From: Aliarcobacter cibarius
GTDB lineage: Bacteria > Campylobacterota > Campylobacteria > Campylobacterales > Arcobacteraceae
DNA length: 64,000 nucleotides
Direction of reading: 5' to 3'
Assembly (NCBI RefSeq): GCF_013372265.1
Contig: NZ_CP054051.1
Coordinates: forward strand, 2,194,596 to 2,258,595
Positions 15,303 to 48,539 of the stretch are shown piece after piece. A program made the translations under genes and the position numbers. How positions within the stretch are numbered: the first letter of the stretch is position 1; each line of letters starts with the position of its first letter. Under the pieces are notes generated by a model. It was not told the origin of the DNA. It saw only the letters and a list, made by a program, of their open reading frames with translations, and did no database searches.

Positions 15303-15314
15303 TATTCAAATTTT

Positions 15315-31027: not shown

Positions 31028-31104
31028 TGGCACGCCTGGTAGGAGTCGAACCCACAACCCACCGGGTCGAAACCGGTTATTCTATCCAGTTGAACTACAG
31101 ACGC
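31028..31104 (-). tRNA. tRNA-Arg (anticodon TCG)
   Basis: 77 bases on the minus strand, ending in encoded GCCA. The acceptor arm pairs GCGTCTG with CAGGCGT (G-T at both wobble positions). The anticodon stem ACCGG/CCGGT encloses the loop TTTCGAC, so the anticodon is TCG, reading CGA. The T-arm contains GGTTCGACTCC. It lies between the TA-rich stretch and the pilus-like cluster, and tRNA-Arg genes are frequent integration sites. Confidence 0.93.
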
Positions 31105-31180: not shown

Positions 31181-31843
31181 ATGCCATATTTAGTATCATC
31201 AATAATAGCAATTGTAGCAGCTTTAATAATTTTAATGACAAGATATGAAGCAGATGATAGTGCTATAACCGTAGAAGTTGAAAGAGCGAAATCGATGTTT
31301 ATAACAATTGATGGATTTGTTAATACTTATATTCAAAGCGGTGGAGATATGACCATGGGAGATACTATAAATACTGAAACATATAAAAAAATAAATTTTG
31401 CTTCACTATATAAAGATGGAATATTATTTGGAAATATATCAAAAGAGAATATTTTGAAAGTTAATTTAAATGATAGCAAACAATCAAGTGAAGAAACTGA
31501 CAAAAACAAATTTTTTGAATCTCAACTACAATTTCCAAATAGTAACATTATTTGGCAAATAGTTCCAATTGTAATAGGGGATAAATATAAAGATCCTTCT
31601 GGAATCGAAAAAGATATAAGTACTAGTGCCGGTGCTGGTTACAAAATTTTTGTAAATTTTACAAATAATTCAACTTTAAAAAATAAAGATTCTTTTAGTG
31701 AAAATTTTTTTGGTAAAGAAGTTTGTGAAAAAACACTTTTTGGAACTTTTTTATCAGATGGTATAGATTTTGATACTAATTTCAAAATTGTTCAAACTGG
31801 AAATCTAAAAGATAGTAAATTTGTTTGTATAGTGTTTAAATAA
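31181..31843 (+). CDS. pilin-like protein without a clear leader
   Basis: 220 residues starting MPYLVSSIIAIVAALIILMT, one hydrophobic helix almost at the very N-terminus, then a helix (VEVERAKSMFITIDGFVNTY) and a globular part with two Cys near the end (EVCEKT, KFVCIVFK). This is the layout of a type IV pilin after or without leader removal. No Gly-type cleavage site or Glu at +5 is seen. First gene of the long cluster, with a GGGAGAAG ribosome site. It may be a minor pilin or initiator. Confidence 0.55.
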   Translation: MPYLVSSIIAIVAALIILMTRYEADDSAITVEVERAKSMFITIDGFVNTYIQSGGDMTMGDTINTETYKKINFASLYKDGILFGNISKENILKVNLNDSKQSSEETDKNKFFESQLQFPNSNIIWQIVPIVIGDKYKDPSGIEKDISTSAGAGYKIFVNFTNNSTLKNKDSFSENFFGKEVCEKTLFGTFLSDGIDFDTNFKIVQTGNLKDSKFVCIVFK

Positions 31844-31940
31844 AATTTAAGAGTTTTTTAATAGTAAAAAAAATTATTTTATGGTAAAATGATAACATAG
31901 TAGCCTTAAAGGTTATAATTTAAATTTAGAAGGGGTAAAA

Positions 31941-32615
31941 ATGCCACAGTTGATAGCGATGATTATCATTGTTGTTGGAGCTATGATATATATGTTCCAA
32001 ACATTTGGAGGAACTGGAGATAAGATCGAAGGTATTGCGCAAAAAACAAGTATTATTACTGAAATTAATAATATTAAAAATGGAATACAAATAGCTTCAA
32101 GAGGTGGGGAAGTTATTGTTGGTACGACTTTAGAGGATCTTGCGAATGTTGGTTATTTTGCACAACAAATTAATGACCAGTTAACAGACACAAGAAGTAA
32201 TGCTGCAAATGAGAATATCTATAATGCGATTTCATTTGGTGGACAAGTTGTAACTGCTGCAGATAATACAAGTAATATGCAGATTTCATTAGTTACTCCT
32301 ACAGCAGCTAATCCAAACGCTAGACCTGGTATATTTGTAAATTTATCAGAAGGTAACTTAGCAAATAATGCTGGTTTCTTAGAAACACAAATTGCAAACG
32401 ATTTGGCAGCTATTGCTTCTATTGATAGAACTGCAACTACTGCTACAGCAGTTGATTTAGATGTTAATGGAGATGTACCAGTTGCTAATGCTCCTACTAC
32501 AGTGACAAATGCTGCAGGTAATGCAGGTACTGTTGCAGTGGGTACTGCTACTTTGACTGATGGAATGTTTACTATATATTTTAAAGATATTCCTGCTGGT
32601 ATAAACTTAAACTAA
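31941..32615 (+). CDS. likely major pilin-like subunit
   Basis: 224 residues starting MPQLIAMIIIVVGAMIYMFQ, again a helix without a leader, then an amphipathic helix (SIITEINNIKNGIQIASRGG) and an Ala/Thr/Asn-rich globular domain (TTATAVDLDVNGDVPVANAP). The composition is typical of a surface subunit made in bulk. It has its own upstream gap with promoter-like sequence and a strong AAGGGG site, and is followed by two hairpins that would cut readthrough. These facts suggest the abundant subunit, but the call rests on layout, not on family similarity. Confidence 0.55.
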   Translation: MPQLIAMIIIVVGAMIYMFQTFGGTGDKIEGIAQKTSIITEINNIKNGIQIASRGGEVIVGTTLEDLANVGYFAQQINDQLTDTRSNAANENIYNAISFGGQVVTAADNTSNMQISLVTPTAANPNARPGIFVNLSEGNLANNAGFLETQIANDLAAIASIDRTATTATAVDLDVNGDVPVANAPTTVTNAAGNAGTVAVGTATLTDGMFTIYFKDIPAGINLN

Positions 32616-32642
32616 AATATTTAGGTATTTTGCCTAAATATT
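32616..32642 (+). terminator. terminator after the major pilin-like gene
   Basis: AATATTTAGG and CCTAAATATT around a 7-base loop, followed by ATTTTTTATT. It starts right at the stop codon. Likely partial, since genes follow in the same direction. Confidence 0.75.
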
Positions 32643-32671
32643 ATTTTTTATTGCTATTAAATAATAAAAGC

Positions 32672-32706
32672 AAAAACTAAGTTCTATTTTTTAGAATTTA
32701 GTTTTT
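32672..32706 (+). terminator. second hairpin before the downstream pilus genes
   Basis: 15-bp stem (AAAAACTAAGTTCTA against TAGAATTTAGTTTTT, one G-T pair) with a T5 loop, followed by GTTTTAA. Another terminator, or a leader hairpin of the next gene 31 bp on. Confidence 0.6.
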
Positions 32707-32736
32707 GTTTTAATACAAAAGGGAGAAAGTCTTTTA

Positions 32737-33471
32737 ATGCTTGGAAATATATGGATATCATCTGCTTTGGTTGTTGTCACAATATTTTCTACTGGAGCGT
32801 TATGGAAATCTCTTAGTGATATAAAAGAAACTAAACAATTACAAGAACACTACGAAATAATTTCAGAAATTAAAACTCTTTTAGCAAAACAATACAATAA
32901 AAATCCAAAAGATATTACAAGAGATGAGATAATTGTTCATTTACCAAATGGTCAAAACTGGGAAAAAGTTTTATTGCTTGACAGAGATAAAAGTAGTGCT
33001 ATTTCAAATAAATCTTTGATAAATAAAGATGGATATATTGAAATAAGCGAAGATGAAAAATTAAAACTTCTTGCACTAAAAGCAAAATTAAAATATTTAA
33101 CAGATGTTAACTCAATAACTCCTGAAAATGGTAAATATATTTTTGAGATTGGGAAATCTGAAAAAAATGCTGTTGTACAAGATTTAGAAATTCAGAAAAG
33201 TGTAGATAAGGCTATTCATGCTTTGTCACAAGATATATTGTATACATCAACCTCATCAAAATCTTTTGTTTTGAATAGTGTTTTAGAAAATTTCACTCCA
33301 TATGAAAAATTTCATTTTACGTTTTTAAAAGAAAATGAAACCAGCATAAGTGAAGATGTATTAAAAGAAAGACAACAAGCTTATTTTAAACAAAAAATAA
33401 AAGAAAAACTTTATAAAAATGAATCTTCTATTGAAACTAGACTATATAAAGAGTTGGAAAGTCTATTATGA
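32737..33471 (+). CDS. pilin-like membrane-anchored protein
   Basis: 244 residues. A short MLG is followed by one hydrophobic helix (NIWISSALVVVTIFSTGALW), fitting a class III-like leader cut after Gly, then a long helix (ETKQLQEHYEIISEIKTLLA) and KNPKDITRDEIIVHLPNG. The rest is helical, with a Lys/Glu-rich tail. Probably a minor pilin or a bitopic assembly protein. Its stop overlaps the next start by 4 bp (ATGA). Confidence 0.5.
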   Translation: MLGNIWISSALVVVTIFSTGALWKSLSDIKETKQLQEHYEIISEIKTLLAKQYNKNPKDITRDEIIVHLPNGQNWEKVLLLDRDKSSAISNKSLINKDGYIEISEDEKLKLLALKAKLKYLTDVNSITPENGKYIFEIGKSEKNAVVQDLEIQKSVDKAIHALSQDILYTSTSSKSFVLNSVLENFTPYEKFHFTFLKENETSISEDVLKERQQAYFKQKIKEKLYKNESSIETRLYKELESLL

Positions 33472-34208
33472 AGAAGTTATATCTTATTTTCATATTTTTA
33501 TCAAATATTGCTTTTTCTCTAGATTTAACAAATTTTGAAGATAGACAAAAAATTTTGCAAGATATAAAAAGTGTAATCCTAAAGGAAGAATCAATTGCAA
33601 GTGCATATGAAAAATATATATTAGATAACTATGCAATTCCTGACAAAATTGATTCTTTGTATACATCAAATTATTTAGGTCAAAGTGTAGATTTTTTAAG
33701 TGATATTACAGACTTTTCATCAAATTTTAATCCATTTTCAATATCTGAGAATAAAATTTCATATTCTCTAAAACTCAATGACATTCAACTAAAAAGTTTA
33801 TATGAAAGTAATACTTTCAGAAAGAAAACTTATATCAGAGACAATAAACTATATTTTATTTTAGAAGATGGATTTGCAAAACATTTATATGACTTAATTA
33901 AATTAAACAATGGACAAATTATAATTTGTCCAAATTCAATTATTACAGTACCAATAAATTGTAGAGATAATAATCATATTTACATAGGCCTCACAAAGAA
34001 AAGTGATGGTACAAATTTTATTCCAGACAAATACTTAATAATTTATCATATAGATAAATTTAAAACTGGACCAATAATAATTACAAATGATATATTAAAA
34101 TATTCTACAGAAAGTGCATTCAACTCTATACCCAAAGGTGCTCTTCTTTATAATGCAAATGGTGTTAAACATTTAAAAACTGTATCTGGAATAGAGATAT
34201 TAAAATGA
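33468..34208 (+). CDS. exported protein with the shared pilus-cluster N-terminal module, 1
   Basis: 246 residues. A Sec signal (KKLYLIFIFLSNIAFS) is followed by the module found in four proteins of this cluster: DIKSVILKEESIASAYEKYI, then a loop with IP, then NYLG and FNPF. Two Cys near residue 150 (IICPNS, INCRDN) may pair. No known family. ATGA overlaps at both ends show tight translational coupling. Inferred to be a periplasmic or surface partner of the machine. Confidence 0.55.
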   Translation: MKKLYLIFIFLSNIAFSLDLTNFEDRQKILQDIKSVILKEESIASAYEKYILDNYAIPDKIDSLYTSNYLGQSVDFLSDITDFSSNFNPFSISENKISYSLKLNDIQLKSLYESNTFRKKTYIRDNKLYFILEDGFAKHLYDLIKLNNGQIIICPNSIITVPINCRDNNHIYIGLTKKSDGTNFIPDKYLIIYHIDKFKTGPIIITNDILKYSTESAFNSIPKGALLYNANGVKHLKTVSGIEILK

Positions 34209-34963
34209 TGAAAAACTTAATAATTTTATTTCTATTAATTATTCACTCTAATGCTAATGAGAGTTTAATTGCACAAAAACAAAATACTTTATATGTTCAT
34301 AACCTAATAGAAATTGAAGAAAAAATAGCTCAAAATTTTGAAAAATATCTTTTAGATAAATTGCAAATTCCTACTATTAACAATTTAATAAATGAAAATT
34401 ATCTAGGCATCAATTTTTCAGTTCAAAATAAAATGGGAAGTAACATAGATTTTAGAGATACTAATAATTTACAAATAAAATATGCAATAGCAAAAAATGA
34501 ATTTATAAACTCTGAAGATTATTTAATCTTACTTTATAATAGAGACCTATATAGAGACTATACTACAGTGAATTTTGTCACTACAAGTGATAAAAAAATC
34601 GATTTAACAAAATCTTTTGTTGAATTCAAATTAAAATCACCGGAAGCAATGACTATCTTTAGTATTTTAAAAAATGGTGAAACTATTCTAGAAAATTGTT
34701 CAGCAGGTCTAATAAATAAATATTGTATAAATGATAAAAAATCTATAAGATGGTATAACTCTAGTTCAAACTGGATTGAATACAATATAAAAGAGTTTAA
34801 CAATGGAAATATAACAGTAAGTAGTGAAAATGTTATTGCTTCTGAAATTGAAAAACTAAGACTTTTAAAAATTGGTAGTTACATTTTCATAAAAGATAAA
34901 ACAAAAAATATAAAAATGGCTAATGATACATCAGGTAACTTACAAATATTAAAGGTGGACTAA
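34205..34963 (+). CDS. exported protein with the shared pilus-cluster N-terminal module, 2
   Basis: 252 residues. A Sec signal (KNLIILFLLIIHSNA) precedes a weaker copy of the shared module (LIEIEEKIAQNFEKYLLD, QIP, NYLGINF). Two Cys in LENCSAGLINKYC are followed by SIRWYNSSSNWIEYN, a Trp-rich stretch also seen in the larger paralogs (GVLHWYDSNG and ISWYEYF). Function unknown. The next gene follows with no gap and no normal start codon. Confidence 0.55.
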   Translation: MMKNLIILFLLIIHSNANESLIAQKQNTLYVHNLIEIEEKIAQNFEKYLLDKLQIPTINNLINENYLGINFSVQNKMGSNIDFRDTNNLQIKYAIAKNEFINSEDYLILLYNRDLYRDYTTVNFVTTSDKKIDLTKSFVEFKLKSPEAMTIFSILKNGETILENCSAGLINKYCINDKKSIRWYNSSSNWIEYNIKEFNNGNITVSSENVIASEIEKLRLLKIGSYIFIKDKTKNIKMANDTSGNLQILKVD

Positions 34964-37900
34964 ATCAAAACAATAATTTTAATACTACTTTTTGTTAATT
35001 TTGCTTTTTCAAATAATCAAAATATATCATTAATGAATGACATAAAAAGTGTAATTCAGAAAGAAGAATATATATCTTTAGCTATAAATAAATACATTTT
35101 ACAAAATGGAAAGATTCCTAAGAAAAATGACAATACATTGGATTGGGATAAACTTTTAACTACAGATTATTTAGGTACAAACTTTAATAAATATAATCCT
35201 TTAACAAAACAAAGTATAAAAGTTATTTTTGATGTAAATAATAATACATTTATAAAAGGTGTATTCGAAAGTGAAAGTTCTTATACTTCCGAACTAAACT
35301 ATTTATACAATTTTTACATAAATAAAATCTTTAGGGTAAATACAATTCCTCCTAAAGACAATACAAAATCCGAGCTAGCTAAAGGTTCACAAGTTTTGTA
35401 TAACAAAATACAAAAAGATATAGTAAATGTAATAAATGAAAATAAATATAAAATATTCTTACCAACTCAAAATTGTGAAGTGGGTAACCATTACTACGAA
35501 CTAAAAAATGAAAGTTTAATATATAAATTTTGTAAAACTTCAAATACTTCTATAGAGGTTTATCAAACATCCCCTGTTTATTTAGAAAGTTTAGATGACT
35601 TAAAATATGTAAAAGTAGAAATAGGTGAAAAAGCATATGTAAAAGATGGTATATCTTGGTATGAGTATTTTTATGAAGGAAATGGTTCGTGGATACCAGT
35701 TGGAACAGGAAGGACTACTGGACAAATTAATGATGAAATCAGTATTGAAGATAGAATTTTATCCTATATTCCAGATTCTAAAGATTTAGTTTTAAAACCA
35801 GATGGTGGTTGTATGCTTGCTAATGGAGATATTTTTTGTTGGGGTAAAAATGTTTATAAAAAAGCAGGAATTGAAAATTATGGACAACTAGATACTACTT
35901 TAAAAGCTAATTATGTAAACACTCCTGTAATGTTAAAAGTTCAAAATGAGAATATTAAAACAAAAACTACTACTTTAGATTTGATAGGTAAGAAGTGGTA
36001 TAACAATCCATATAGAGTAAAATTTGAGAAAATGGCAATGAATAGTAAATTTGTTTGTGGAATTTCTCCAATATTTGACTATTATGAATTAGGTATTCGA
36101 TATAAAAAGGGGGGTGATCTATATTGTAATGGATATATCCATTCTGATGATTTTTTTACTGAAACAACAGGACAAACACAAACTTCGATTTTAACAAAAA
36201 GTAAGGCTGTATCAATCGGAAAGGAAAATGGTATTTTTAACCAAAATTCACTTTATCTTAAAGATATAGCAATGGTTGAAGGAACTTTATCTCTTCTAAC
36301 AGATACTGGGATAATTTATACAGTTGGCTCTAATGATAAAGGCGCTTTAGGAATAGATAATCAATCTGGATTAAATATTTATACTTTTCAACCACAAAAA
36401 GTAAATCCTGATGGAGTAATTTTTAAAAAAATATATGCTCTTCGAGATATAAAAAGTTTTGGAGCATTAGACACAAACAACTATTTCTGGATTTGGGGGG
36501 AGAGACCTAGTGGAGAAATCTACTATAAACCTAGAATATTATCAAACTCAAAAAGATTTGATCAAAATGGAATATTTGTTAATAGTAAAGAGTTTGTATT
36601 AAAAGGTTTAGATAATAAATATTATAGAACTTATCTAGACACAATAAAAGAATTAAATGTTGAAGAAGGAGCATTAAGTGTCTCTGTATACGATTTTAAT
36701 GGTACAGAAGAGTTACTCTATGTAGATAAGAATATGCAACTTAAAGGCTCTTCAGATTTTATAAACTGCAGAGATAAAGATTTTAATACATGCTTATCTA
36801 GTGAAGATAATATTTTATTTAAAGATTCTTTTGATGTACTAAATAACTTAACAAACAGTGTAAATAATACACTTTATGCAAATTTTTCAAACATTTCTAT
36901 TTTTGAATCTAATGTAAATAAAAATATTGTTGATTATGGAACGGATTATGTAGAAAATTTTGAAAATAATTCTACAGCAGGCTGGAATGTAAATTATATC
37001 GTTGATGGAGGAACTGCCGCATCAAAATTCTTAGGACGCCTAGGAAAAGAGATAATAAATACGGATACAGGAAGTCAAGCTGTATTTAAAACTATAGATT
37101 TAGGTACTTCATGGGCAAATCAAAATGTAAAAATTACATTTGATATGTATGAAATAGGTTCATGGGATGCTAATAACTATTGGGCGGACTATCTAAATGG
37201 TAAAAGCGAATCATTTTATGTATATATAAATGATTTAAATGTTTCAAGAGATATTTATTCTTCAGATCCAAATTTTGATACAAAAGGTGGAGTTGATTTA
37301 GATGTTGTTACAAGTTCATATACTCAATACGCCCAAAAACACGAATACTCTTTTACAACAACTTTAGATTCCGGGGGAAAAGTAAAATTAGGATTTGGAG
37401 CTATTCTAGGCGAAAAGTATGATAATGAATCTTTTGGTATAGACAATATAAGAATTTCTAGAAAAATAGATAATGTGAATTTTACAAATGGAGTATATTA
37501 TGAAAACTTTGAAGATGGAAACCATGATTATTGGATAGTTCCAAGAGGTCCTGTACCTTTTGCAGAAAGAGATTTTCCATATTTTGCAAATTATCCAATT
37601 TATACAGGACATAATGAATCCACAAAATTTTTGGGAAGATTTAATAGACAAAGTTCGGGTGGAGATATTTATAATGGAAATAGCGATGGAACACAAGAAG
37701 TTTATAAAATTTTTAGTTTTGGATCAGAAAATGCAAATAAAGAAGTAAAAATTGATTATGACTTCTACAGAATAGATATTTGGAGAGATGTTTTAGGCTA
37801 TACAACAGATGAATTTTATACATTTATTAATGGAACTAGATATACAACATATAGATATTCAGCTTTAGATATAGGAGACATTTTTACTTTTAATATTCCA

Positions 37901-38368
37901 AATACTGGTGGAACACTTGATAATAAACATTCATTTACAAAAAATGCTTATTTGGACTCTTATGGTAATATTAAATTAGGATTTGGGGCCTATATCAAAG
38001 ATAACTACATAAATCAACTTTCTTGGGGTATAGATAATGTTAAATTTACATTAACTGGAAATAAAAATCCATCGTCTATTACACCAATTTCTAGTTCAAG
38101 CGTAAAATTGCCATATATTTGCGCAATGACGGGGATTGGTAGCGCTTCACAAATGTACTGTTGGGGAAATGTTGGAAGAAGTATTCCAATTTTAAGTACT
38201 TCTTTGTATGATGTTGGTAAAATAAATACTATAAATAAGTTATTTATTACTCAGGAAAGTGAAAAAACAAAACAAATGGCGTTTGATAACTTCAATAATT
38301 CTGGTAGTTTATTTTTAAAATACCCTACATATATTGGTGGGTTTGATTATCCATTTTATTTTAAATAA
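34964..38368 (+). CDS. giant exported protein: shared module, RCC1-like propeller, two jelly-roll domains
   Basis: About 1134 residues if read from 34964, where AAAGGTGGA precedes an ATC codon (possible AUC start) and KTIILILLFVNFAFS makes a Sec signal. The first normal ATG, at 35033, would drop the signal. The shared module follows (DIKSVIQKEEYISLAINKYI, TDYLG, YNPL). RCC1-type blades appear as NGDIFCWGKN, IYTVGSNDKGALGIDN and WIWGE. Two tandem beta-domains follow (YVENFEN and YYENFED starts; FGIDNIRI and WGIDNVKF ends). One last blade (QMYCWGN) and the C-terminal motif KYPTYIGGFDYPFYFK close it. Likely a surface adhesin or tip protein (inferred). Confidence 0.65.
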   Translation: MKTIILILLFVNFAFSNNQNISLMNDIKSVIQKEEYISLAINKYILQNGKIPKKNDNTLDWDKLLTTDYLGTNFNKYNPLTKQSIKVIFDVNNNTFIKGVFESESSYTSELNYLYNFYINKIFRVNTIPPKDNTKSELAKGSQVLYNKIQKDIVNVINENKYKIFLPTQNCEVGNHYYELKNESLIYKFCKTSNTSIEVYQTSPVYLESLDDLKYVKVEIGEKAYVKDGISWYEYFYEGNGSWIPVGTGRTTGQINDEISIEDRILSYIPDSKDLVLKPDGGCMLANGDIFCWGKNVYKKAGIENYGQLDTTLKANYVNTPVMLKVQNENIKTKTTTLDLIGKKWYNNPYRVKFEKMAMNSKFVCGISPIFDYYELGIRYKKGGDLYCNGYIHSDDFFTETTGQTQTSILTKSKAVSIGKENGIFNQNSLYLKDIAMVEGTLSLLTDTGIIYTVGSNDKGALGIDNQSGLNIYTFQPQKVNPDGVIFKKIYALRDIKSFGALDTNNYFWIWGERPSGEIYYKPRILSNSKRFDQNGIFVNSKEFVLKGLDNKYYRTYLDTIKELNVEEGALSVSVYDFNGTEELLYVDKNMQLKGSSDFINCRDKDFNTCLSSEDNILFKDSFDVLNNLTNSVNNTLYANFSNISIFESNVNKNIVDYGTDYVENFENNSTAGWNVNYIVDGGTAASKFLGRLGKEIINTDTGSQAVFKTIDLGTSWANQNVKITFDMYEIGSWDANNYWADYLNGKSESFYVYINDLNVSRDIYSSDPNFDTKGGVDLDVVTSSYTQYAQKHEYSFTTTLDSGGKVKLGFGAILGEKYDNESFGIDNIRISRKIDNVNFTNGVYYENFEDGNHDYWIVPRGPVPFAERDFPYFANYPIYTGHNESTKFLGRFNRQSSGGDIYNGNSDGTQEVYKIFSFGSENANKEVKIDYDFYRIDIWRDVLGYTTDEFYTFINGTRYTTYRYSALDIGDIFTFNIPNTGGTLDNKHSFTKNAYLDSYGNIKLGFGAYIKDNYINQLSWGIDNVKFTLTGNKNPSSITPISSSSVKLPYICAMTGIGSASQMYCWGNVGRSIPILSTSLYDVGKINTINKLFITQESEKTKQMAFDNFNNSGSLFLKYPTYIGGFDYPFYFK

Positions 38369-38377
38369 GGAAAAGAT

Positions 38378-40045
38378 TTGAGAAAGATTAAGAGTTTAAT
38401 TGCAATTTCTACATCAATACTGCTACTTTCTGGTTGTAGTTCTAAAAGTTTTCATGAAGATATGATAGAAAACACAAAGAAATCTTTAGATAAAAAAGAT
38501 TACGGCGGTATTAAACAATCATATTCAGACAGTCTTGTAGATGAAGTAAATATCAAAAAAGATTACATTTCTATAATAGATGATAAATCTTTAGCTGATA
38601 TACTAAAAGAGCTAGAACAAATCGATGGAAACTTATATTTTTTAAAAAGTAGTGATATATTAATTCCAAAAAGTAGAATAAAAATATCAAGTTTTGAAGA
38701 TTTAAACAACTATATAAATGCTGTTTTAGATAAAACTCTTACAACAGAACAAAATGGTCAAATAGTATTAGTAAAAGTATTAACTTCTAGTGAAAGAAAA
38801 AAAAGATCTATTAAATCAATTCCTTTCAATTTAGATGGACAAATTAGCGTAGAAGAGCTTATTAGATTAATTACTCTGGAGTCTGGTTATGAAATAAATA
38901 TTGGAAGTTTTATAGAAAATAGAAATGATTTCCAAAATAGTATTGTTCAAATTAGCTCTAGGGATTTGCAAGATGCATTAAATTCTCTAGCTCAGTCAAA
39001 AGATGTTTATGTAGATGTAGATTATGATAAAGAGGCTATAAATATTTCTAGATATAAAGATGTTGTAATTGAATTGAATATTCCTCTTTTAGATATGAGT
39101 TCAACAAGTCAAACATCAAATCAAGAAACAACTGGTGGAGAGAGTAAAATAGAAAATAAATCTCAAATTGTTTTATATGAAGAGCTTGATAAAATGTTAA
39201 AAAATATAATTGCAACAGATAAAATCTCAACTTATCATATAGATAAAGCTAGTGGTCTTATATTTTTAAAATCAACAAAATCTATTGAAAATGCTGTAAG
39301 AACACTTGCAAAAGCTTATGAAGCTAGTTTCTCAAAAGAAGCAATTATAGAATTTGAAAGAATAGAAGTCTTATTAAATAAAAGTAGAGAATTTGGTATT
39401 TTAGGAGCTGATTTTACAAGAATTGGTGATGGAACATCTTGGAATGTAGGACCTCTTTCACCCGAAAGTACTGGAGCTTTAGGATTTGAAACTGTAAATC
39501 CAATTAGAAACCTAAGAATGCTTGCTGATTCAAAAAATGATATAGGTAAAATGTTAAACTATAGTAAAAATATGATTGTTCTTAAAAATAATATTCCTTC
39601 TGTTCAAGCTATAACAGACAATACAGATTATGTTGAAAAGATAGAAACAACAAGAGATGCTGATACAAAAGAAAGAACTTCTGATGTTACTGTAAATACA
39701 TTAAAAGAAGGAACTTCTATTACTGCAATGGCCAAAATATCTAGAGATAAAATATTTTTAAATATAGCACCAACAATTAAAAAATTAATCACTTTTAAAG
39801 AAGTTAGTGTAGATGGAACAACTATTCAACTTCCTCAATACAATGACCAAAGTTATAATGTTTCAAAAGAAGTTAAACTAGGAGAAACATCAATAGTTGG
39901 ATCAATTATTGTTCATGATGATGCAAAAGGATACAAGGGAATAGTTCCTATTGAAAGTTTTGCTATTGGAGGAACAGACTCAAAATCTTATGTAAGAAGA
40001 GAGATTGTTTATGTGATTACTTTAAAAGAAATAAAAGGTTTCTAA
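38378..40045 (+). CDS. secretin lipoprotein of the type IVb pilus/PilN class
   Basis: 555 residues starting at TTG, with AAGGAAAAG upstream. The lipobox is LLLSGC (Cys near 20). The N-terminal part holds STN-like and secretin N-domains (SLADILKELEQI, ISVEELIRLITLESGY). The C-terminal secretin core has VNTLKEGTSITAMAKIS, FLNIAPTIKKL and the amphipathic end VRREIVYVITLKEI. It should form the outer-membrane ring. PilN/BfpB/TcpC-type secretins are lipoproteins like this one. Confidence 0.8.
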   Translation: MRKIKSLIAISTSILLLSGCSSKSFHEDMIENTKKSLDKKDYGGIKQSYSDSLVDEVNIKKDYISIIDDKSLADILKELEQIDGNLYFLKSSDILIPKSRIKISSFEDLNNYINAVLDKTLTTEQNGQIVLVKVLTSSERKKRSIKSIPFNLDGQISVEELIRLITLESGYEINIGSFIENRNDFQNSIVQISSRDLQDALNSLAQSKDVYVDVDYDKEAINISRYKDVVIELNIPLLDMSSTSQTSNQETTGGESKIENKSQIVLYEELDKMLKNIIATDKISTYHIDKASGLIFLKSTKSIENAVRTLAKAYEASFSKEAIIEFERIEVLLNKSREFGILGADFTRIGDGTSWNVGPLSPESTGALGFETVNPIRNLRMLADSKNDIGKMLNYSKNMIVLKNNIPSVQAITDNTDYVEKIETTRDADTKERTSDVTVNTLKEGTSITAMAKISRDKIFLNIAPTIKKLITFKEVSVDGTTIQLPQYNDQSYNVSKEVKLGETSIVGSIIVHDDAKGYKGIVPIESFAIGGTDSKSYVRREIVYVITLKEIKGF

Positions 40046-40048
40046 AAT

Positions 40049-41065: not shown

Positions 41066-41075
41066 GAGAACTGAA

Positions 41076-42773
41076 ATGCTAAGTAAATTTTCAGCTAAAT
41101 TAAAAAAACCGGATTTTAAATTTCTAAAAAATAAAAAGAATTTTGAGTTTAACAAAGAATCTTTTCAAAACTTGTTTAAAGATTTTGATTATAAAACATA
41201 TTTTGATAAATATAAAAATAAATTTTATGAAATAATGGGTAATGAATCAGATAACTCAAACCATTTAGCAACAATGATAGAAAATATGATTCAAACAAGA
41301 TACAATTTAAAAGGTGGATTCTCGGATCTAATAGCTAATGAAGCAAAATATGAAAGCTTTGTGAGAAGTTTAGGTTATGAATACTTTGATAGTTATACTG
41401 AATTACTAAAAAAGTATAAAGATACTTCAAGCTTTTTAGATGATAAAAAGCAAGAACTTTGTGCAAATATGTATATTATTACTTTGGAAGATATAAAAAA
41501 TAAAAATAAAGTTCTAGGGATTAGAGACGTTGTTAATCTAGATTTTGATGTTCTTAGTAAGTTTTATTTCACAAAAATCGTAGTTCTTGGAGAAGGTGTT
41601 TTATCTTCTGTTTTTGGAGAAGATAGAGAGATTATATTTAATTCAAATGCTGATACAGAAAATGATGAAGAGATAAATAAATACTTTGATAAAATGATGG
41701 GGCAAGCCATACTTCTTGGAGCATCTGATATTCATATTCAAAAAACAAGTAGGTATGCATCTTTATGGTTTAGAATAGATGGTATAAAAGTAGATATGGG
41801 AACAATGCCTATTACTATTGCTAAAACTCTAAAAAGAAGACTAGTAACAATGGCTGATCAAGAAGATTCAGATTATGAATCAATAAATGGTGTTATAAAC
41901 TACGACTATGCAAAGAAAAATATAAAATTTAGGTTAGGACTTATAAACTCTAAATTGAACTTTTCTCTAGTTATGAGGATGATTGGTGGAAAAGGTGTTG
42001 TTTCACATAATCTTTCAGGTTTAAATTATCCAGAAGAAACTATAAGAATATTAAATAATCTTACAAAATATGCAAATGGTATGATATTAATAACAGGACA
42101 AGTTGGTAGTGGTAAAACCCACTTAATGTATGCACTTCTTCAACAACTTGCAAGACAACAACAATACGTAATTACAATAGAAGACCCTGTTGAGTATGTT
42201 GATGAGTCATTTTTCCAAATCGATTTATCAGAGTTTGCAAGTGCTAGTGAAGAGTTTAAATATGGTTACCCTGAAGCCGTTGTTGATATTCTAAGACAAG
42301 ATTCAAATATTATTCTAATTGGAGAAACCAGAGAACCTCAAACTGCTGCACAGCTTGTAAATGCATCAAATTTAGGTCAGTTAGTATTTTCTACTATGCA
42401 TACAAACTCGGCACCTGCTACAGTCTCAAGAATGACTAGTTCATTAGGAATAAATGAAGGTGATATTATAGATAACCTAAGAGGTATTGTATCTCAAAGA
42501 TTAGTTAGAAAACTTTGTAAATTTTGTAGCGTTCCAGATAATAATGGTGGTTATAAAAAAGTTGGTTGTGATGAGTGTAGCAATACAGGATTTAAAGGAA
42601 GGGTTCCTATTGCAGAGGTTGTAAGATTTAAATTAGGACAAGGTGGTGACTTTGAAAATCCTGCTGAATATATGACTGTGGAAAAAGCTGCAATGGCACA
42701 ATATCATGCTGGATTTATAACACTTGAAGATGCAACTGCAATTATTAGAGGGGAAGAAGTATGGTACGATTAG
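41076..42773 (+). CDS. GspE/PilB-type secretion ATPase
   Basis: 565 residues. ASDIHIQK lies near residue 215 (N2 domain), Walker A GQVGSGKTH near 341, the Asp box ITIEDPVEYVD near 366, Walker B NIILIGETRE near 411 and the His box FSTMHTNS near 437. A tetracysteine zinc motif follows (CKFC near 481, CDEC near 498). The first 200 residues are unlike standard PilB. The zinc motif is usual for assembly ATPases rather than retraction ATPases. It powers pilus assembly or secretion. No second, PilT-like ATPase is in the cluster. Confidence 0.88.
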   Translation: MLSKFSAKLKKPDFKFLKNKKNFEFNKESFQNLFKDFDYKTYFDKYKNKFYEIMGNESDNSNHLATMIENMIQTRYNLKGGFSDLIANEAKYESFVRSLGYEYFDSYTELLKKYKDTSSFLDDKKQELCANMYIITLEDIKNKNKVLGIRDVVNLDFDVLSKFYFTKIVVLGEGVLSSVFGEDREIIFNSNADTENDEEINKYFDKMMGQAILLGASDIHIQKTSRYASLWFRIDGIKVDMGTMPITIAKTLKRRLVTMADQEDSDYESINGVINYDYAKKNIKFRLGLINSKLNFSLVMRMIGGKGVVSHNLSGLNYPEETIRILNNLTKYANGMILITGQVGSGKTHLMYALLQQLARQQQYVITIEDPVEYVDESFFQIDLSEFASASEEFKYGYPEAVVDILRQDSNIILIGETREPQTAAQLVNASNLGQLVFSTMHTNSAPATVSRMTSSLGINEGDIIDNLRGIVSQRLVRKLCKFCSVPDNNGGYKKVGCDECSNTGFKGRVPIAEVVRFKLGQGGDFENPAEYMTVEKAAMAQYHAGFITLEDATAIIRGEEVWYD

Positions 42774-43510
42774 CAATTACTGATTTTACTTCAAAAGAAG
42801 AGAGTGAATATTTTTATGTAAATGAAGAATATGAAACTTCTCAAAATATGTTCACATATTCAGGATTTAAAAAATATAGCGCCTATCTACCAAAAGAAGG
42901 TGATTATAAATTTTATTCTTTAAATTTACTATCAAAAAAGTATTTAGATAAAGACAAGTTTTTAATACATATTGCAGATGAAGAGTTTGTAATTTTATTT
43001 AATCATAAAACAATATATAGTGCTAAAATAAATCCTAATTTTATCACTGATGATATGGTTAAATCTATACTAATTTCAAAACATATTACAATGCTTAGTA
43101 GTGGAGGAGAACTTAATAAATTTTATTATGTAATTAATTCAAAATATCGTGCAGCATTAGAAATAATATTGAAACAAAATATAAAAAATGAACAAAAACA
43201 AGTTATTGCGGAATCTCTTGGAGATATTGAAGATTTAGTTAAGCCATTAAAAGATTTAGATACTCCAAAATCTCACTCTATAAAACTATCTATTTTAGTA
43301 TTTTTATTTGGTGGTAGCTTTTGGCTAAGTGCTTTTGGACTTGATATGATTAAAGAAAAATATCTAAAAATAGAGTCTTTAGATCCTCTAAAACAAGAAC
43401 TTAATTTTGAAGACAAATTTAAAAATAGACAAATGAAAACTTTAAATGATGCACAAGCTGAATATAATAAACTTACTGACTGTATTACATATAAAGAGGC
43501 TATTAAATGA
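42761..43510 (+). CDS. bitopic assembly protein (BfpC/PilO-like by position)
   Basis: 249 residues with a long cytoplasmic N-terminal part (1 to about 175), one membrane helix (LSILVFLFGGSFWLSAFGL) and a short periplasmic tail. This is the topology of BfpC, PilO of thin pili or GspL, which link the ATPase to the periplasmic frame. Overlaps the ATPase gene by 13 bp and the next gene by 4 bp. No clear sequence family was recognised. Confidence 0.5.
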   Translation: MVRLAITDFTSKEESEYFYVNEEYETSQNMFTYSGFKKYSAYLPKEGDYKFYSLNLLSKKYLDKDKFLIHIADEEFVILFNHKTIYSAKINPNFITDDMVKSILISKHITMLSSGGELNKFYYVINSKYRAALEIILKQNIKNEQKQVIAESLGDIEDLVKPLKDLDTPKSHSIKLSILVFLFGGSFWLSAFGLDMIKEKYLKIESLDPLKQELNFEDKFKNRQMKTLNDAQAEYNKLTDCITYKEAIK

Positions 43511-43998
43511 TAAGTATTAGTAATAATTCATTAAAAAAATGGTCAAAATATGTAGTTATATCAATATTTGCATACACTATATTTTTTATGACCTCAACAG
43601 TTATAGAATATTATCAAGCATATAAAGAAAAAGAACATCTTACAAATGAATTACAGATAAAAAGAGATGAAACAACATCTCTAAAACAAAAAATAAACGC
43701 TTTAAAAGAGAAGACTAAACTAATTCAAGAAAGTTACATTAAAGAAGATGAGATAAGAACAAGAGTTAGTGAAATTTTTGATAGAGTTTCATTGATTGAT
43801 TATAAATTAAAACTACTAGATGTAAGAAATCAATGTATAGATAGAAATATTCTTGTTGTTAATCTATCTGCTAATAGTGAAAATGGTTTTAAAGCTGGAG
43901 AAGGAATTTTAAACTATTTGGGAGAAACTATAAGAAGTGAACAAAGCGAAAATTTATATTTTGTAAACTATATCTCAAAACCAAGAGATTTAAAATGA
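43507..43998 (+). CDS. PilN/PilO/GspM-like bitopic protein
   Basis: 163 residues. One membrane helix (YVVISIFAYTIFFMTSTVI), then a coiled coil (EKEHLTNELQIKRDETTSLK and on) and a small alpha-beta domain at the end. This is the layout of PilO/GspM-type alignment proteins. ATGA-type overlaps with both neighbours. Confidence 0.5.
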   Translation: MISISNNSLKKWSKYVVISIFAYTIFFMTSTVIEYYQAYKEKEHLTNELQIKRDETTSLKQKINALKEKTKLIQESYIKEDEIRTRVSEIFDRVSLIDYKLKLLDVRNQCIDRNILVVNLSANSENGFKAGEGILNYLGETIRSEQSENLYFVNYISKPRDLK

Positions 43999-46334
43999 AA
44001 ATACTTTTAGTTTTTTATTTTTCAATTTTTTCTATAAATTTATTCGCGGATAACTATATAGATTCAATAACTTTAACAAAAATAAAAAAACTTGTACAAA
44101 AAGAAGAAGAAATTGCTCTTGCTTATAAAGAATATCTATTAAAGAATGGAAAACTTCCATTAACAAATGGGGCTATTGATATAAAACTTTTAGATTTACC
44201 AAAAGGATTTGATACTATTAACCCTTTTGGTAAACAAATCACTCTTAATATTGATAATAATTCAACACCTACAAATAAAAAAGATGATAAACATAGAATA
44301 GATGGATTTAAATCAACAGATCCTATACTCAAATCAAATTTATATGATTATTACTATTCAAATAAATATAGAATTAATACAAAGTCTCCTCTAAGTATTA
44401 ATAATAGTGATGTAGAAATTATCTTATCTTCTAAAGAAAAATTTATATATGAAAACAGTTCTAATGATTCTACATTAAATAAAATCACTACTACAGCTCC
44501 AAATAATTTGGCTAAAACTCCTAAAAACAAATATTATTTGGACAACAAGGGAGTTTTACATTGGTATGATTCAAATGGGAATTATAAATTCTCATATGAT
44601 AAAGAATTACTTCTAGACGAAAGTGTAAGTTTACTAAATACAGATGGTACAGTAAATAGTACTTACAAAGATTTAGTAAAAGATATTGAATTCGCTGGAA
44701 TGACAATACTACACAAAAAAGATGGTGTTGCTCAAGAATATATTAATATTAATATGGGAAATATAATAAAAGTTAATCAACAAGAAAGAGATATTGGTAA
44801 AACAGTTATTCTATTTAATAGAAGAGCTGGTGGGATGATAGTTAATGGAGATATCTATGCATGGGGAAATAATGGAAATGCTATAACAGGGATAGATGCA
44901 AAAATGACTTTATCAGGGAAAACATCAAATGGGATATATCCACTAATTACAGTACCTATTTTACATAAAGCAAAAATATATGAGACTGTAAAAATAGGTA
45001 CAACTGATAAACTAAAATATTATATGGAAAATTATTATTCTTCTCCTAAAAGACCAAAATTTATAGATTTATTTGCAGGAGTTTATACTGGTACTTGTGG
45101 AATCACTACAAAAGGTGAGCTATACTGTGGTGGTACAACAGGAAATCAAAGAGATAATAATTCAACAACTCAAGGTGATTATACGGATGTAGATAAAACA
45201 TCTACAGGAGATGGAGCAAGAAAAGGAGAACTTTTATATAGAAGTACTTATTTCGATGGAAGTGCTGGAAAAAAATTAAAAAAACATTTTGCAAATAATC
45301 AAATTTGGCATTTTTTAGGAGAAGATGGGAGAATTTATATTTGGGGGTCAAACACTTCTGGATTTGGTGCTTTAGGTACACCTCAAAATAAAACTCTCAC
45401 TAATTATCAAGCAATACCTAATTTATATAATATTATTGATATGACCTACCTTACAACATTTGGATTTAGAAGAATTGGGGCATTAAGTAGTAGTGGAGAG
45501 GTTTATATTTGGGGAGTTGAAGATAACAATGGTTCAACAACAGATACAATTTATGGAAATTGCACAAAAACTTGGAAAAATACAAAAAATGTTTCAATTA
45601 ATTATGATATGTGTGCGCCAATTAAAATAACAATTGAAAATTCAAATCTTTCAACTATACCAAATTTCAAATATATAAGAGGTGGGATAGATGCATTTAT
45701 TGCAAAAGATGACGCTGGAGTATATTATAGAATTAGACAAGAAAAAAGTAAAAAAATAGAAGTTGATGATATAAGAAGCTTAATACCTCAAAAATGGGGA
45801 TATAACTCAGTTGATGATCGAGAGATAATTTCAGCAGATATTTCAAGAACAGTAAATGATTTAACTAACTTAGTGAAAATAAGTAATGGTATAGTCTGGA
45901 TAAATAGTAAAAATGAACTTAAAGGTGATATTTTTATTGCTGTAAATCAAAATGATGAATATTTTCTTGATTCTATAAAAAAAATAAAATGGAAGCAAAT
46001 TAAAGTTATAGATGAAAATAATGGAATGTGTGGAATAGATATAAATAATCAAATGTACTGTTGGGGTAATCAATCATATTATAGAGTTGCTGGCTCAAAT
46101 CAAAGATATAAAGTTGCAAGTACCTATTTTATACCTGTATTTAATACAAACTTATATGATTTATCAAAAGATTTTATGGTGGCAGAAGCAAGAGATGATT
46201 ACATAACACCTATTAGCTCAAAAGAGTGGCAAACGACTATAGTTACGCAAGAAGGAATAACTCATTCTGATGCTTTTTTTATAAAATATCCAACATATAT
46301 AGGTGGTTTTAATTATGAATTTGAATTTAAATAA
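43995..46334 (+). CDS. large exported protein: shared module plus RCC1-like propeller
   Basis: 779 residues. Sec signal KILLVFYFSIFSINLFA, then the clearest copy of the shared module: KKLVQKEEEIALAYKEYLLK, NGKLP, and INPFG, which resembles the helix and NPFG turn of GspG-type pseudopilins. RCC1 blades follow at about residues 278 (NGDIYAWGNNG), 365 (GELYCGGTTG), 440 (RIYIWGSNTSGFGALG), 494 (GEVYIWGVED) and 676 (QMYCWGN). The end, KYPTYIGGFNYEFEFK, is almost the same as in the giant paralog. Probably a surface or tip component; no jelly-roll insertion here. Confidence 0.65.
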   Translation: MKILLVFYFSIFSINLFADNYIDSITLTKIKKLVQKEEEIALAYKEYLLKNGKLPLTNGAIDIKLLDLPKGFDTINPFGKQITLNIDNNSTPTNKKDDKHRIDGFKSTDPILKSNLYDYYYSNKYRINTKSPLSINNSDVEIILSSKEKFIYENSSNDSTLNKITTTAPNNLAKTPKNKYYLDNKGVLHWYDSNGNYKFSYDKELLLDESVSLLNTDGTVNSTYKDLVKDIEFAGMTILHKKDGVAQEYININMGNIIKVNQQERDIGKTVILFNRRAGGMIVNGDIYAWGNNGNAITGIDAKMTLSGKTSNGIYPLITVPILHKAKIYETVKIGTTDKLKYYMENYYSSPKRPKFIDLFAGVYTGTCGITTKGELYCGGTTGNQRDNNSTTQGDYTDVDKTSTGDGARKGELLYRSTYFDGSAGKKLKKHFANNQIWHFLGEDGRIYIWGSNTSGFGALGTPQNKTLTNYQAIPNLYNIIDMTYLTTFGFRRIGALSSSGEVYIWGVEDNNGSTTDTIYGNCTKTWKNTKNVSINYDMCAPIKITIENSNLSTIPNFKYIRGGIDAFIAKDDAGVYYRIRQEKSKKIEVDDIRSLIPQKWGYNSVDDREIISADISRTVNDLTNLVKISNGIVWINSKNELKGDIFIAVNQNDEYFLDSIKKIKWKQIKVIDENNGMCGIDINNQMYCWGNQSYYRVAGSNQRYKVASTYFIPVFNTNLYDLSKDFMVAEARDDYITPISSKEWQTTIVTQEGITHSDAFFIKYPTYIGGFNYEFEFK

Positions 46335-46344
46335 GAGAGGAAAA

Positions 46345-47448
46345 ATGAAAAAATTAGGATTAATTATTTTAATAGCTATATCAACTATTATAAATGCTCA
46401 AGAGACAAATGCTCCTACAACAAAAATAGAAGAAAAGCCTACTCAAAATGTTGATAAACTTGATATGTTAGATCAACAATCTAAAGAGTTTTTTAAATCA
46501 ATAACTGGTTTAGAAAAAAGTTACCTAGAAGAACAAATACAAGAATTAAAAAACAAAAAAGAGGAAGCTGACAAAGGAATTATTCAAACAAACGTTCCTC
46601 AAAATTCTTCAAATACTCAAGGACAGGTTATAATGACTGAGGAAGAGTATGAAAAAAATGTATTTAATCACCAAAATGAAATAGCAAGAATTACAACTGA
46701 TTTTGCAAGAACAAAAAAAATAAAAGATTTAAAAATCAAAAGTATGTATACGTTTAATGGTGTAGATTATGCTGTTTTACTATTAGATGATACAGAATCT
46801 GCCTCAAGAAATAAAACTAGCACCGAGCTTAGTGGAAATATCGAAGGAAGATATGTTGAAGGTGATAATATTCTAGGTCTAAAAATAATTGATATAAATA
46901 CTAGAACAAAAAGTATAGAACTATATAAAAAACTTGATGAAGATACAGGTTATACAATATTCTTAAGTAATTATGGAATAAATGTTAGTAATTTGGAAAA
47001 AAGGGATAAAAACGACCCTAGATATACTCAAAATGCTCCTAAAAATATTACAAAGAAAACTGAAAGCTATTCAGACAATAAACCATATGAATCTTCAAAA
47101 AATATAGTAGAAAATCAATCTTCAACTAATTATGAACAAAAAAATAACTCAAGTGTTAAAAAAGTATTTGAAGATGTAAAACCTATAGAAAAAAAATCAG
47201 CATCAGATAAAATTTGCTATGTTGTAAATAGACAAAATTTAAATGTTAGAATCGAACCAAATGAAAACTCTAAAATTTTAAGAGTTTTAAAAATTAATGA
47301 TAAATTTGTAGTTCAGAAATCAAATCAAGATTGGTTAAATATAGATACTATTTATAAAAAAATTTCAGGCGATGTAATGAATGTAAGTGATCAAAGTAAC
47401 TGGGTTCAAAATACAAATGGATCACTAACTCAAACAGAATGTAATTAG
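46345..47448 (+). CDS. periplasmic protein with C-terminal SH3-like domain
   Basis: About 367 residues from the ATG at 46345, preceded by AGAGAGGA; an upstream in-frame start would overlap the previous gene. Sec signal (KKLGLIILIAISTIINA), a coiled coil (LEEQIQELKNKKEEADKG), a beta-rich part (KSMYTFNGVDYAVLLLDD), a low-complexity linker, and a bacterial SH3 domain (NRQNLNVRIEPNENSKILRV ... WLNIDT). Its middle part may act like the pilotin/PilP partners of the secretin, and the SH3 domain may bind cell wall. Confidence 0.55.
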   Translation: MKKLGLIILIAISTIINAQETNAPTTKIEEKPTQNVDKLDMLDQQSKEFFKSITGLEKSYLEEQIQELKNKKEEADKGIIQTNVPQNSSNTQGQVIMTEEEYEKNVFNHQNEIARITTDFARTKKIKDLKIKSMYTFNGVDYAVLLLDDTESASRNKTSTELSGNIEGRYVEGDNILGLKIIDINTRTKSIELYKKLDEDTGYTIFLSNYGINVSNLEKRDKNDPRYTQNAPKNITKKTESYSDNKPYESSKNIVENQSSTNYEQKNNSSVKKVFEDVKPIEKKSASDKICYVVNRQNLNVRIEPNENSKILRVLKINDKFVVQKSNQDWLNIDTIYKKISGDVMNVSDQSNWVQNTNGSLTQTECN

Positions 47449-47456
47449 GAAATATT

Positions 47457-48539
47457 TTGGAAAATACAAAAGATTATAAATCACAGATTTTTTCAAATAT
47501 CTCAAAAGTAGAAAATGAGATAGTTATTCTAAAACAAAAATATAATAAGTTTTTTAGTATAGATCATATTTTTTCAAATGAAAATGGTGGAAAAACAAGA
47601 TTAAATAGACAACTGTATAATGAAAATCATGAAGATATACAAACTTCTATTATGGAAATAAACTATATATTAGAAGAGTCATTAGGTTATTTAAAAGAGG
47701 AGTTAAAAATGCTCCTTGCTAAGTATAATCAATTTGAAAAACTAGATTTAAATGAATTTCTAATAGATGACAAAAATTTCTTTGAACTACTATCTATCTC
47801 TTTAAAAACTCAAATCATGGGTGGAGATTTAAAAAATAGATATATAAATGATATAAAATCAATAATTGATTTAAAAAATAGATTAAATAATCTTAAATAC
47901 TTCATAAGTAATTTTGATACATCTACTTTTGATAGACATATTAATAAATTAGGTATTGAAGAACTTATAAATAGTTCTCTTATTTTTGAAGTAATTGACT
48001 CTTATGCACTACAATATGAAGAGCTATTAAAATTTGAATTAGAAATTATAAATTTCCAAAAACCAAAATATAAAATAAATTCTTTAAAACCTATAAATAA
48101 TCTTTTAGAACTACACAGAAGAAAAGTTGATGATTATTTTTATGCAGATACAAGATATAAAATTATTCTAGATTTTGATACAAATTTTCAATTGAAAAGA
48201 ACTGTAAATTTAAATCTTGCCTATGTTGAAAATATTATCTCAAATCTAATAGAGCAATCTTGTATGGATATTATAAAAAAAGAGTTAAAAAAAGGAAAAG
48301 TTCAAAAATTTATCTCAATTCTAATTAATTACAATAAAAACAAACTTCAAATTATTGTAAAAAACAATGGTTTTGAAGTTGGAGACATTTATAATCTTTT
48401 TATGCTAAATAGTGAAAATAAAACTATTATAGAAACAAAAAATTTAGTAAATTCTCTTAATGGTGAACTTTCGATAGAAACAAAAGAAAATGAAGGTATG
48501 CAATATAGTGTAGTTATTGATGTAAAAAATCAAATATAG
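47457..48539 (+). CDS. GHKL-ATPase-like protein without phosphoacceptor domain
   Basis: 360 residues from a TTG with TAGGAAAT upstream. The first two thirds are helical (coiled coil). The last third resembles a histidine-kinase ATP-binding domain (VENIISNLIEQSCMDIIKK as N-box region, IIVKNNGFEVGD as a G1-like strand, NSLNGELSIETKENEGMQY as G2-like end). There is no visible H-box His, signal or membrane helix. It may be a regulator that binds ATP, or a degenerate kinase. Last gene of the cluster, 9 bp after the SH3 gene. Confidence 0.5.
   Translation: MENTKDYKSQIFSNISKVENEIVILKQKYNKFFSIDHIFSNENGGKTRLNRQLYNENHEDIQTSIMEINYILEESLGYLKEELKMLLAKYNQFEKLDLNEFLIDDKNFFELLSISLKTQIMGGDLKNRYINDIKSIIDLKNRLNNLKYFISNFDTSTFDRHINKLGIEELINSSLIFEVIDSYALQYEELLKFELEIINFQKPKYKINSLKPINNLLELHRRKVDDYFYADTRYKIILDFDTNFQLKRTVNLNLAYVENIISNLIEQSCMDIIKKELKKGKVQKFISILINYNKNKLQIIVKNNGFEVGDIYNLFMLNSENKTIIETKNLVNSLNGELSIETKENEGMQYSVVIDVKNQI

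Follow-up and report, generated by a model that had tools for sequence, protein, structure and literature searches.

The 64,000-nucleotide stretch of the closed 2.34 Mb genome of Aliarcobacter cibarius analysed here (positions 2194596-2258595; "the window") contains at 31181-48539 a cluster of 14 genes, which probably encodes a divergent type IVb (T4b)-like filament machine that operates without a prepilin peptidase and moves propeller proteins through a secretin. As a first-pass annotation had stated, the cluster runs in one direction: all 14 genes are consecutive in the list of open reading frames, lie on the plus strand and are separated by short gaps or overlap (Table 1). The gene order is p1, p2 and p3 (pilin-like proteins), e1, e2 and E3 (exported proteins), secretin, platform, ATPase, f1 and f2 (frame proteins), E4 (the fourth exported protein, which shares a module with e1, e2 and E3), a periplasmic protein with an SH3-type domain and a soluble protein. 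The assignment to a divergent T4b-like machine is supported by the synteny of the 14 genes in 20 other genomes and by the co-distribution of p2 and the module proteins with the secretin. Further support comes from the predicted pilin fold of p2, its match to a pilin of cousin clusters, the propeller fold of E4, the RCC1 repeats of the most distant relative and the signal peptides of the exported proteins, as well as from the contrast in dN/dS (ratio of non-synonymous to synonymous substitution rates), the absence of a PilT match over the cut-off, a lone prepilin signature outside the cluster and the precedent of TcpF.

Distribution of the cluster and components of the machine

All 14 genes recur in the same order and on the same strand in the fetched neighbourhoods of 20 other Arcobacteraceae genomes, which takes the cluster beyond chance; two more clusters are cut by contig ends. 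The secretin was detected in 27 of 104 genomes of the family, 25 of these copies being fairly close, and p2 in exactly 25 of the 104, i.e. the secretin holders minus two distant ones. Proteins with the module are present in 14 of 397 genomes of the phylum, and all 14 also hold the secretin. The gene set is passed on as one unit, which is carried by about half of the genus. The secretin of Arcobacter vandammei is 91% identical to the window copy. Both p3 and f1 are kept in place, p3 in every full cluster and f1 also in the relatives L053 and L054. L053 has the cluster without any of the four exported proteins; the adjoining gene on the opposite strand (15153-16274) encodes a protein of 373 aa whose N-terminus resembles that of p1. 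Among the 20 full clusters, an open reading frame of 400 aa interrupts the platform gene of L035 and the ATPase gene of L038 is split, possibly reflecting decay or switch-off in single genomes.

Secretin, platform and ATPase, which the first-pass annotation had recognized, gave profile matches, of which those of secretin and platform lie below the family cut-offs. The secretin was missed by PF00263 in the search of its own genome, and its matches to TIGR02519 (MshL; E 2e-13, 49.9 bits, cut-off 250.2) and TIGR02520 (PilN; E 1e-5, 24 bits, cut-off 287) stay below the cut-offs. It also matches the solved BfpB (E 8.5e-4) and carries a lipobox, LLLSGC, near its start. In a tree built with few references, it groups with two T4b secretins and those of cousin clusters, apart from type II secretion system (T2SS) and mannose-sensitive haemagglutinin (MSH) secretins (100/99). 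These cousins are found in other Campylobacterota (L055-L057) and on a plasmid of the deep-sea vent bacterium Caminibacter pacificus (L124, 6024-31424); they have sister secretins (100/98) and an f2 homologue (hhalign 58.6%, E 9.5e-5), and L056 also encodes module homologues. The platform matches T2SSF below the cut-off (E 0.006), and is 338 aa long and constant in place in nearly all relatives. The ATPase matches Pfam T2SSE with E 2e-65. Two bitopic frame proteins are encoded from 42761 and 43507, as had been claimed; comparison of the f1 profile with PDB sequences gave no known family.

Likewise as described before, the cluster contains neither a prepilin peptidase nor a PilT gene. PilT (TIGR01420) had no match over the cut-off in the entire genome, so that the filament would be non-retracting or retract without such an ATPase. 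The prepilin signature TIGR02532, which can miss some pilins, occurs once in the genome, at 1082652 and far from the cluster, so no classical prepilin set was found elsewhere for this machine.

For the protein encoded from 46345, SH3_3 scored below the cut-off (E 0.0026), and its profile matched SH3 domains of wall hydrolases and, with E 8.5e-5, a bacterial domain of solved structure. A relation to PilP, also considered, gained no support from hhalign. The gene, listed from 46303, probably starts at ATG 46345 instead. The last gene had no meaningful match among Pfam and PDB profiles; by eye it had been taken for a decayed GHKL/histidine-kinase ATPase, but hhalign gave no relation to HATPase.

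Predicted folds and rates of change of the pilin-like and exported proteins

Structure prediction had been set in advance as a test of the first-pass annotation, and it yielded a T4b-pilin-like fold for p2 and an RCC1 propeller for E4. The AlphaFold2 (AF2) model of p2 (pLDDT 87) has a helix of 53 residues (2-54) followed by an alpha/beta head. In VIA-align it superimposes on TcpA (8uhf) with Z 7.2 over 164 residues and on PilS of S. typhi (3fhu) with Z 6.9, and residue 3 of the model falls on mature residue 1 of TcpA. Type IV pilins take the first nine ranks among the aligned chains, and the next one is an unrelated protein (Z 3.2). By this predicted fold, p2 resembles a T4b major pilin. The p2 profile detected no known family among PDB sequences, but it matches the second pilin of the cousin clusters over nearly its whole length (hhalign 59.5%, E 9e-5, 165 columns), and no other family of the cluster exceeded 2% in this comparison. 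Since p1 is homologous to p2 (hhalign E 8e-7), the earlier count of three pilin-like proteins stands for these two, and p3 resembles them in layout only: hhalign gave no significant profile match of p3 to p1, p2 or the exported module. p3 is a possible minor pilin.

The four exported proteins, for which signal peptides are predicted, share an N-terminal module of ~200 residues (hhalign probabilities of 97-100% in all six pairs), and in two of them, E3 and E4, RCC1 repeats score higher than the Pfam cut-off, both findings being as first proposed. For E3, PF00415 scored 24.8 bits at a cut-off of 21.7. Residues 267-779 of the AF2 model of E4 form an RCC1-type propeller, matching UVR8 with Z 17.6 over 304 residues and RCC1 in Foldseek with E 1.8e-10. 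By their repeats, and in E4 also by the modelled propeller, both proteins belong to the RCC1 superfamily with its repeats or seven-bladed propeller. In the most distant relative, L054, module proteins possess textbook RCC1 repeats (Pfam E 1e-49), indicating that the weak scores in the window reflect divergence. RCC1 proteins are not exclusive to the cluster, as a few genomes of the family carry them elsewhere; in the cousin clusters examined for it, Pfam found no RCC1. A search of phage records for E4 relatives found none, and the PilY1 Pfam family had no match in E3 or E4 at E 1.

E4 has six invariant cysteines in three close pairs, which fit an oxidising compartment. Of 22 full E3 proteins, 21 carry an inserted domain of ~170 residues, either once or twice, and no E4 has it (self-comparison and hidden Markov model [HMM]). 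Both proteins end alike, with the motif YPTYIGGF(D/N)Y.F.FK nearly unchanged in all full E3 and E4 proteins. A role of this motif as a genome-wide sorting tag was rejected, because across the genome it occurs solely at the ends of E3 and E4. Homology of the module to p1 and p2 was not found by hhalign, which also gave no support to the idea, gained by eye from the motif YKEYLLKNGKLP...NPFG, that the module is a headless pilin.

The signal peptide of E3 is intact and encoded upstream of the listed ATG at 35033, which points to an earlier start. Translation probably begins at about 34964 with a non-ATG codon, ATC, which immediately follows the e2 stop (TAA ATC, 34961-34966). An ATC or ATT is found at this place in eight clusters (the window and seven relatives), and an ATG in the other relatives. 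Such a conserved weak start may keep the large E3 scarce; an alternative to the ATC start is an e2-E3 fusion made by read-through of the stop.

Rates of change differ strongly within the cluster. Between the window and L032, identity is 92-93% for secretin, platform and ATPase (dN/dS 0.06-0.08) and 92% for the flanking coaE, whereas p2, E3 and E4 reach only 58%, 61% and 63% (dN/dS 0.30-0.44). In comparison with L033, e1 and E3 retain 36% and 48% identity (dN/dS 0.46-0.56) versus 91-94% for secretin, platform and ATPase. Pilin-like and exported proteins overall show 58-78% identity and dN/dS values of 0.17-0.44 to close relatives; over all comparisons dN/dS is 0.05-0.08 for secretin, platform and ATPase as opposed to 0.17-0.56 for pilins and exported proteins. 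This is as expected if the latter are surface-exposed parts. Co-inheritance, signal peptides and fast evolution support the earlier proposal that the large proteins may be carried to the surface or tip.

The same gene set could also form a T2SS-like secretion machine, in which leaderless pilins make a short piston pumping the module proteins to the medium, with no filament or tip display. The absence of a PilT match over the cut-off and the presence of four soluble exported partners within the cluster would agree with this, and the common N-terminal module and unvarying C-terminal motif would be in keeping with a secretion signal. However, the secretin stands apart from GspD (100/99), the ATPase is no member of the T2SS clade, the cluster has no GspG-K set and no pseudopilin signature, the nearest folds of p2 are T4b pilins, and its head changes fast as if exposed. 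We regard such a secretion machine as unlikely.

Translation starts of p1 and p2

Type IV prepilins are defined by a leader that is cut by prepilin peptidase and ends in Gly or Ala, followed by a hydrophobic stretch (Pelicic review, PMC10191384). In p1 and p2 there is no Gly/Ala cleavage site ahead of the helix and no Glu5, and TIGR02532 does not match. None of the 23 p2 genes offers a start codon between the M of MPQLIA or MPLLIA and the nearest in-frame stop, which lies 2-19 codons ahead of it, and 23 of 23 have a Shine-Dalgarno-like site immediately in front of this M. For p1, 22 of 24 genes lack an upstream in-frame start and 22 of 24 have such a site just before the M; the exceptions are short extensions absent from other copies, and the same holds for an 11-codon extension of the L037 copy. 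Hence, p1 and p2 appear, judged by their sequences, to be leaderless, to start at the hydrophobic helix and to lack the class III signal peptide of the type IV filament superfamily. The first-pass annotation had not noted this trait, which may be the most unusual one of the cluster. The second residue is always Pro in p2; it is Pro, Ala or Gly in p1, and bulky in p3. Methionine aminopeptidase acts when residue 2 is Pro, Ala or Gly. One small protein of an inovirus-like prophage region of the genome, which encodes a Zot-type protein and a secretin (L067, 1242501-1262500), begins with MPQLI as p2 does.

Ordinary type IV pilins whose leaders were missed, due to an unusual start codon upstream or to cleavage of a short MLG-type leader, are quite improbable. 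Non-ATG starts do occur here, as the ATC/ATT of E3 in eight clusters demonstrates, the genome encodes two prepilin peptidases, and many copies of p3 begin with MLG|N. Nonetheless, the Shine-Dalgarno-like sites, the upstream stops of p2, several of which are too close to leave room for a leader, and the lacking Gly, Glu5 and TIGR02532 match speak against leaders in p1 and p2.

Proposed mechanism, related systems and genomic surroundings

In the machine that we propose, the first helix of p1 and p2 would anchor them in the inner membrane, leaving the N-terminus on the cytoplasmic side, and it would be methionine aminopeptidase, rather than prepilin peptidase, that exposes Pro, Ala or Gly at their N-terminus. 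By homology, building a filament from these pilins beneath the lipoprotein secretin would be the task of ATPase, platform and the f1/f2 frame. The proteins e1, e2, E3 and E4 would be exported by Sec and could dock with their shared module on the tip, formed by p3 or a pilin complex, comparable to the N-terminus of TcpF or CofJ on a trimeric minor pilin. As it extends, the filament would drive the module proteins, RCC1 propellers included, out through the secretin, to be kept as tip adhesins or released. The full version of this model, to which we give slightly less than even credence, is a type IV filament free of prepilin processing: pilins are made in mature form, with the Met-Pro start trimmed to an N-terminal proline, Glu5 is lost, and the tip consists of Sec-exported docking-module proteins with variable RCC1 propellers. 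Being a secondary amine, this proline may take the place of N-methyl-phenylalanine.

Prepilin processing by its peptidase counts as a defining step in how type IV filaments are assembled (PMC10191384). If the model is true, this processing can be lost, offering a natural test of the roles of leader, N-methylation and Glu5; the cluster would be the second instance, independent of the first, in which pili bear RCC1 propellers, and likely a variable surface structure, with a putative role in attachment, in a family that includes emerging enteric Aliarcobacter. A pseudopilus for DNA uptake in natural transformation, with propellers binding DNA or a surface, is very improbable: the relative A. butzleri does transform naturally (PMC8308473) and secretin/platform/ATPase sets do this job elsewhere, but about half of the genus is without the cluster, Pfam searches found no competence gene in it, and four variable exported proteins are foreign to described competence systems.

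Several observations weigh against a T4b-like filament machine without prepilin peptidase. Two A24 peptidases are encoded elsewhere in the genome, one alone and one in a Tad pilus locus, which has its own ATPase as well (L066, 1146001-1166000). The Z score of 7.2 for p2 is modest and rests on a prediction, and as Foldseek by itself gave no significant match of this model in the PDB, and hence no significant pilin, the fold is support and not proof. Three cousin sequences underlie the pilin match. p3 is without a known fold, as is the module, whose profile detected no known family among PDB sequences and Pfam. In the ATPase tree, the Arcobacteraceae proteins form their own branch (99/98) outside the T4b clade, and two T4b references join the T2SS/MSH/type IVa pilus (T4aP) group (95/96), branches being long. 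Relaxed constraint can also raise dN/dS of pilins and exported proteins, and we infer filament, surface location and interactions from genes and predictions.

No published description of this cluster, nor a named system with this gene set, was found in the open literature, in agreement with the first-pass annotation. Its term "type IVb-like" holds for the secretin tree and the pilin fold, and does not extend to the ATPase. As the ATPase forms its own branch, the cluster is like a T4b pilus and not a proven member: it has the predicted fold and apparently the kind of secretin, is without the ATPase clade and the leader, and we do not file it as such. Experiments have described TcpF as a soluble protein carried on the tip of a T4b pilus (PMC9565799). 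With the toxin-coregulated pilus (TCP) and colonization factor antigen III (CFA-III), the cluster shares a lipoprotein secretin, apparently of the BfpB/PilN kind, one assembly ATPase, a platform, a TcpA/PilS-like pilin fold and cluster-encoded soluble proteins (there TcpF and CofJ), possibly tip-borne via an N-terminal segment. It differs by leaderless pilins without Glu5, the lack of a prepilin peptidase gene, the ATPase clade, and four paralogous module proteins with RCC1 propellers. R64/IncI-type thin pili (PilN, PilO2, PilQ, PilR, PilS, PilV; Vibrio plasmid L126) have the same core set and a related secretin (22% over 239 residues), but their pilins bear leaders. Tip variation resides in the PilV C-terminus in R64-type pili, whereas here it would lie in separate exported proteins. 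Unlike p1 and p2, the pilins of the cousin clusters L055-L057 have classical leaders (KKG-ITLIE, KKG-FTILEV), including those matched by p2 (MKKG-FTILEV).

An RCC1 propeller on a pilus protein, a precedent that the first-pass annotation had not named, is already known from Saccharibacteria, where PilX2 of the T4P-2 pilus has a seven-bladed RCC1-repeat propeller and no predicted PilD signal, and where both the working of the pilus and attachment to the host depend on this protein (PMC12206443). That propeller forms part of a pilin, whereas those of the cluster are joined to a Sec-exported module and occur in a different phylum with different machine genes. PilY1/PilC of T4aP are likewise exported beta-propellers at the pilus tip, the placement that we propose for E3 and E4, but no sequence match exists and PilY1 works with conserved H-K minor pilins, which are not seen here. 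The secretin scores best with MshL, and MSH loci are also without a prepilin peptidase (PMC6668835); yet MshL stays below the cut-off, Pfam found no MshM AAA gene in the cluster, and secretin and ATPase are both separated from the MSH reference in the trees. By published models (PMC6668835), the cluster lacks defining features of MSH, of T2SS (named above) and of T4aP, for whose PilT the genome has no TIGR01420 match over the cut-off.

Table 1. Features of the cluster (window positions).
Feature	Position	Strand	Size and basis
p1, apparently leaderless pilin-like protein	31181..31843	+	220 aa, MPYLVSSIIAIV...; p2 homologue
p2, apparently leaderless major-pilin candidate	31941..32615	+	224 aa, MPQLIAMIIIVVGAM...; predicted fold, start-site survey
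p3, short protein with N-terminal membrane helix, without leader; possible minor pilin	32737..33471	+	244 aa; conserved place
e1, exported, shared module only	33468..34208	+	246 aa; signal peptide, module common to e2/E3/E4
e2, exported, shared module only	34205..34963	+	252 aa; module common to e1/E3/E4
E3, exported module, RCC1-like region and two inserted ~170-aa repeat domains	34964..38368	+	1134 aa; probable ATC start
Two insert-domain copies within E3	36947..38050 (about 36947-37456, 37496-38050)	+	self-comparison, HMM
C-terminal motif YPTYIGGFDYPFYFK of E3	38321..38365	+	near-invariant in full E3/E4 proteins
Secretin lipoprotein	38378..40045	+	555 aa; MshL/PilN/BfpB-like profile matches, tree
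Inner-membrane platform, GspF/PilC type	40049..41065	+	338 aa; sub-threshold T2SSF, constant length
Assembly ATPase	41076..42773	+	565 aa; T2SSE
f1, bitopic frame protein, one transmembrane segment, long cytoplasmic part	42761..43510	+	249 aa; sequence, conserved place
f2, bitopic frame protein, PilO-like layout	43507..43998	+	163 aa; homologue in cousin clusters
E4, exported module and C-terminal RCC1 propeller (residues about 267-779)	43995..46334	+	779 aa; AF2, UVR8/RCC1 fold matches
C-terminal motif YPTYIGGFNYEFEFK of E4	46287..46331	+	same motif as E3 end
Periplasmic protein ending in an SH3_3-like domain; may bind the wall or serve as a PilP-type link	46345..47448	+	profile matches
Soluble protein, last gene of cluster, fold without known match	47457..48539	+	360 aa

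The genomic place of the cluster is conserved, since a glucosaminidase gene and coaE adjoin it downstream in many relatives. A tRNA-Arg (TCG) gene lies on the minus strand at 31028-31104, 77 bases ahead of p1, preceded by a gene for a zeta-toxin-like kinase (29379-30131, minus strand). The gene at 51260-53818 encodes a sensor histidine kinase whose input domains are NMT1 and SBP_bac_3. Directly upstream of the window (L068, genome 2178001-2194700) lies a VirB-type conjugation/secretion gene set, whose VirB11-like ATPase is the third T2SSE match in the genome.

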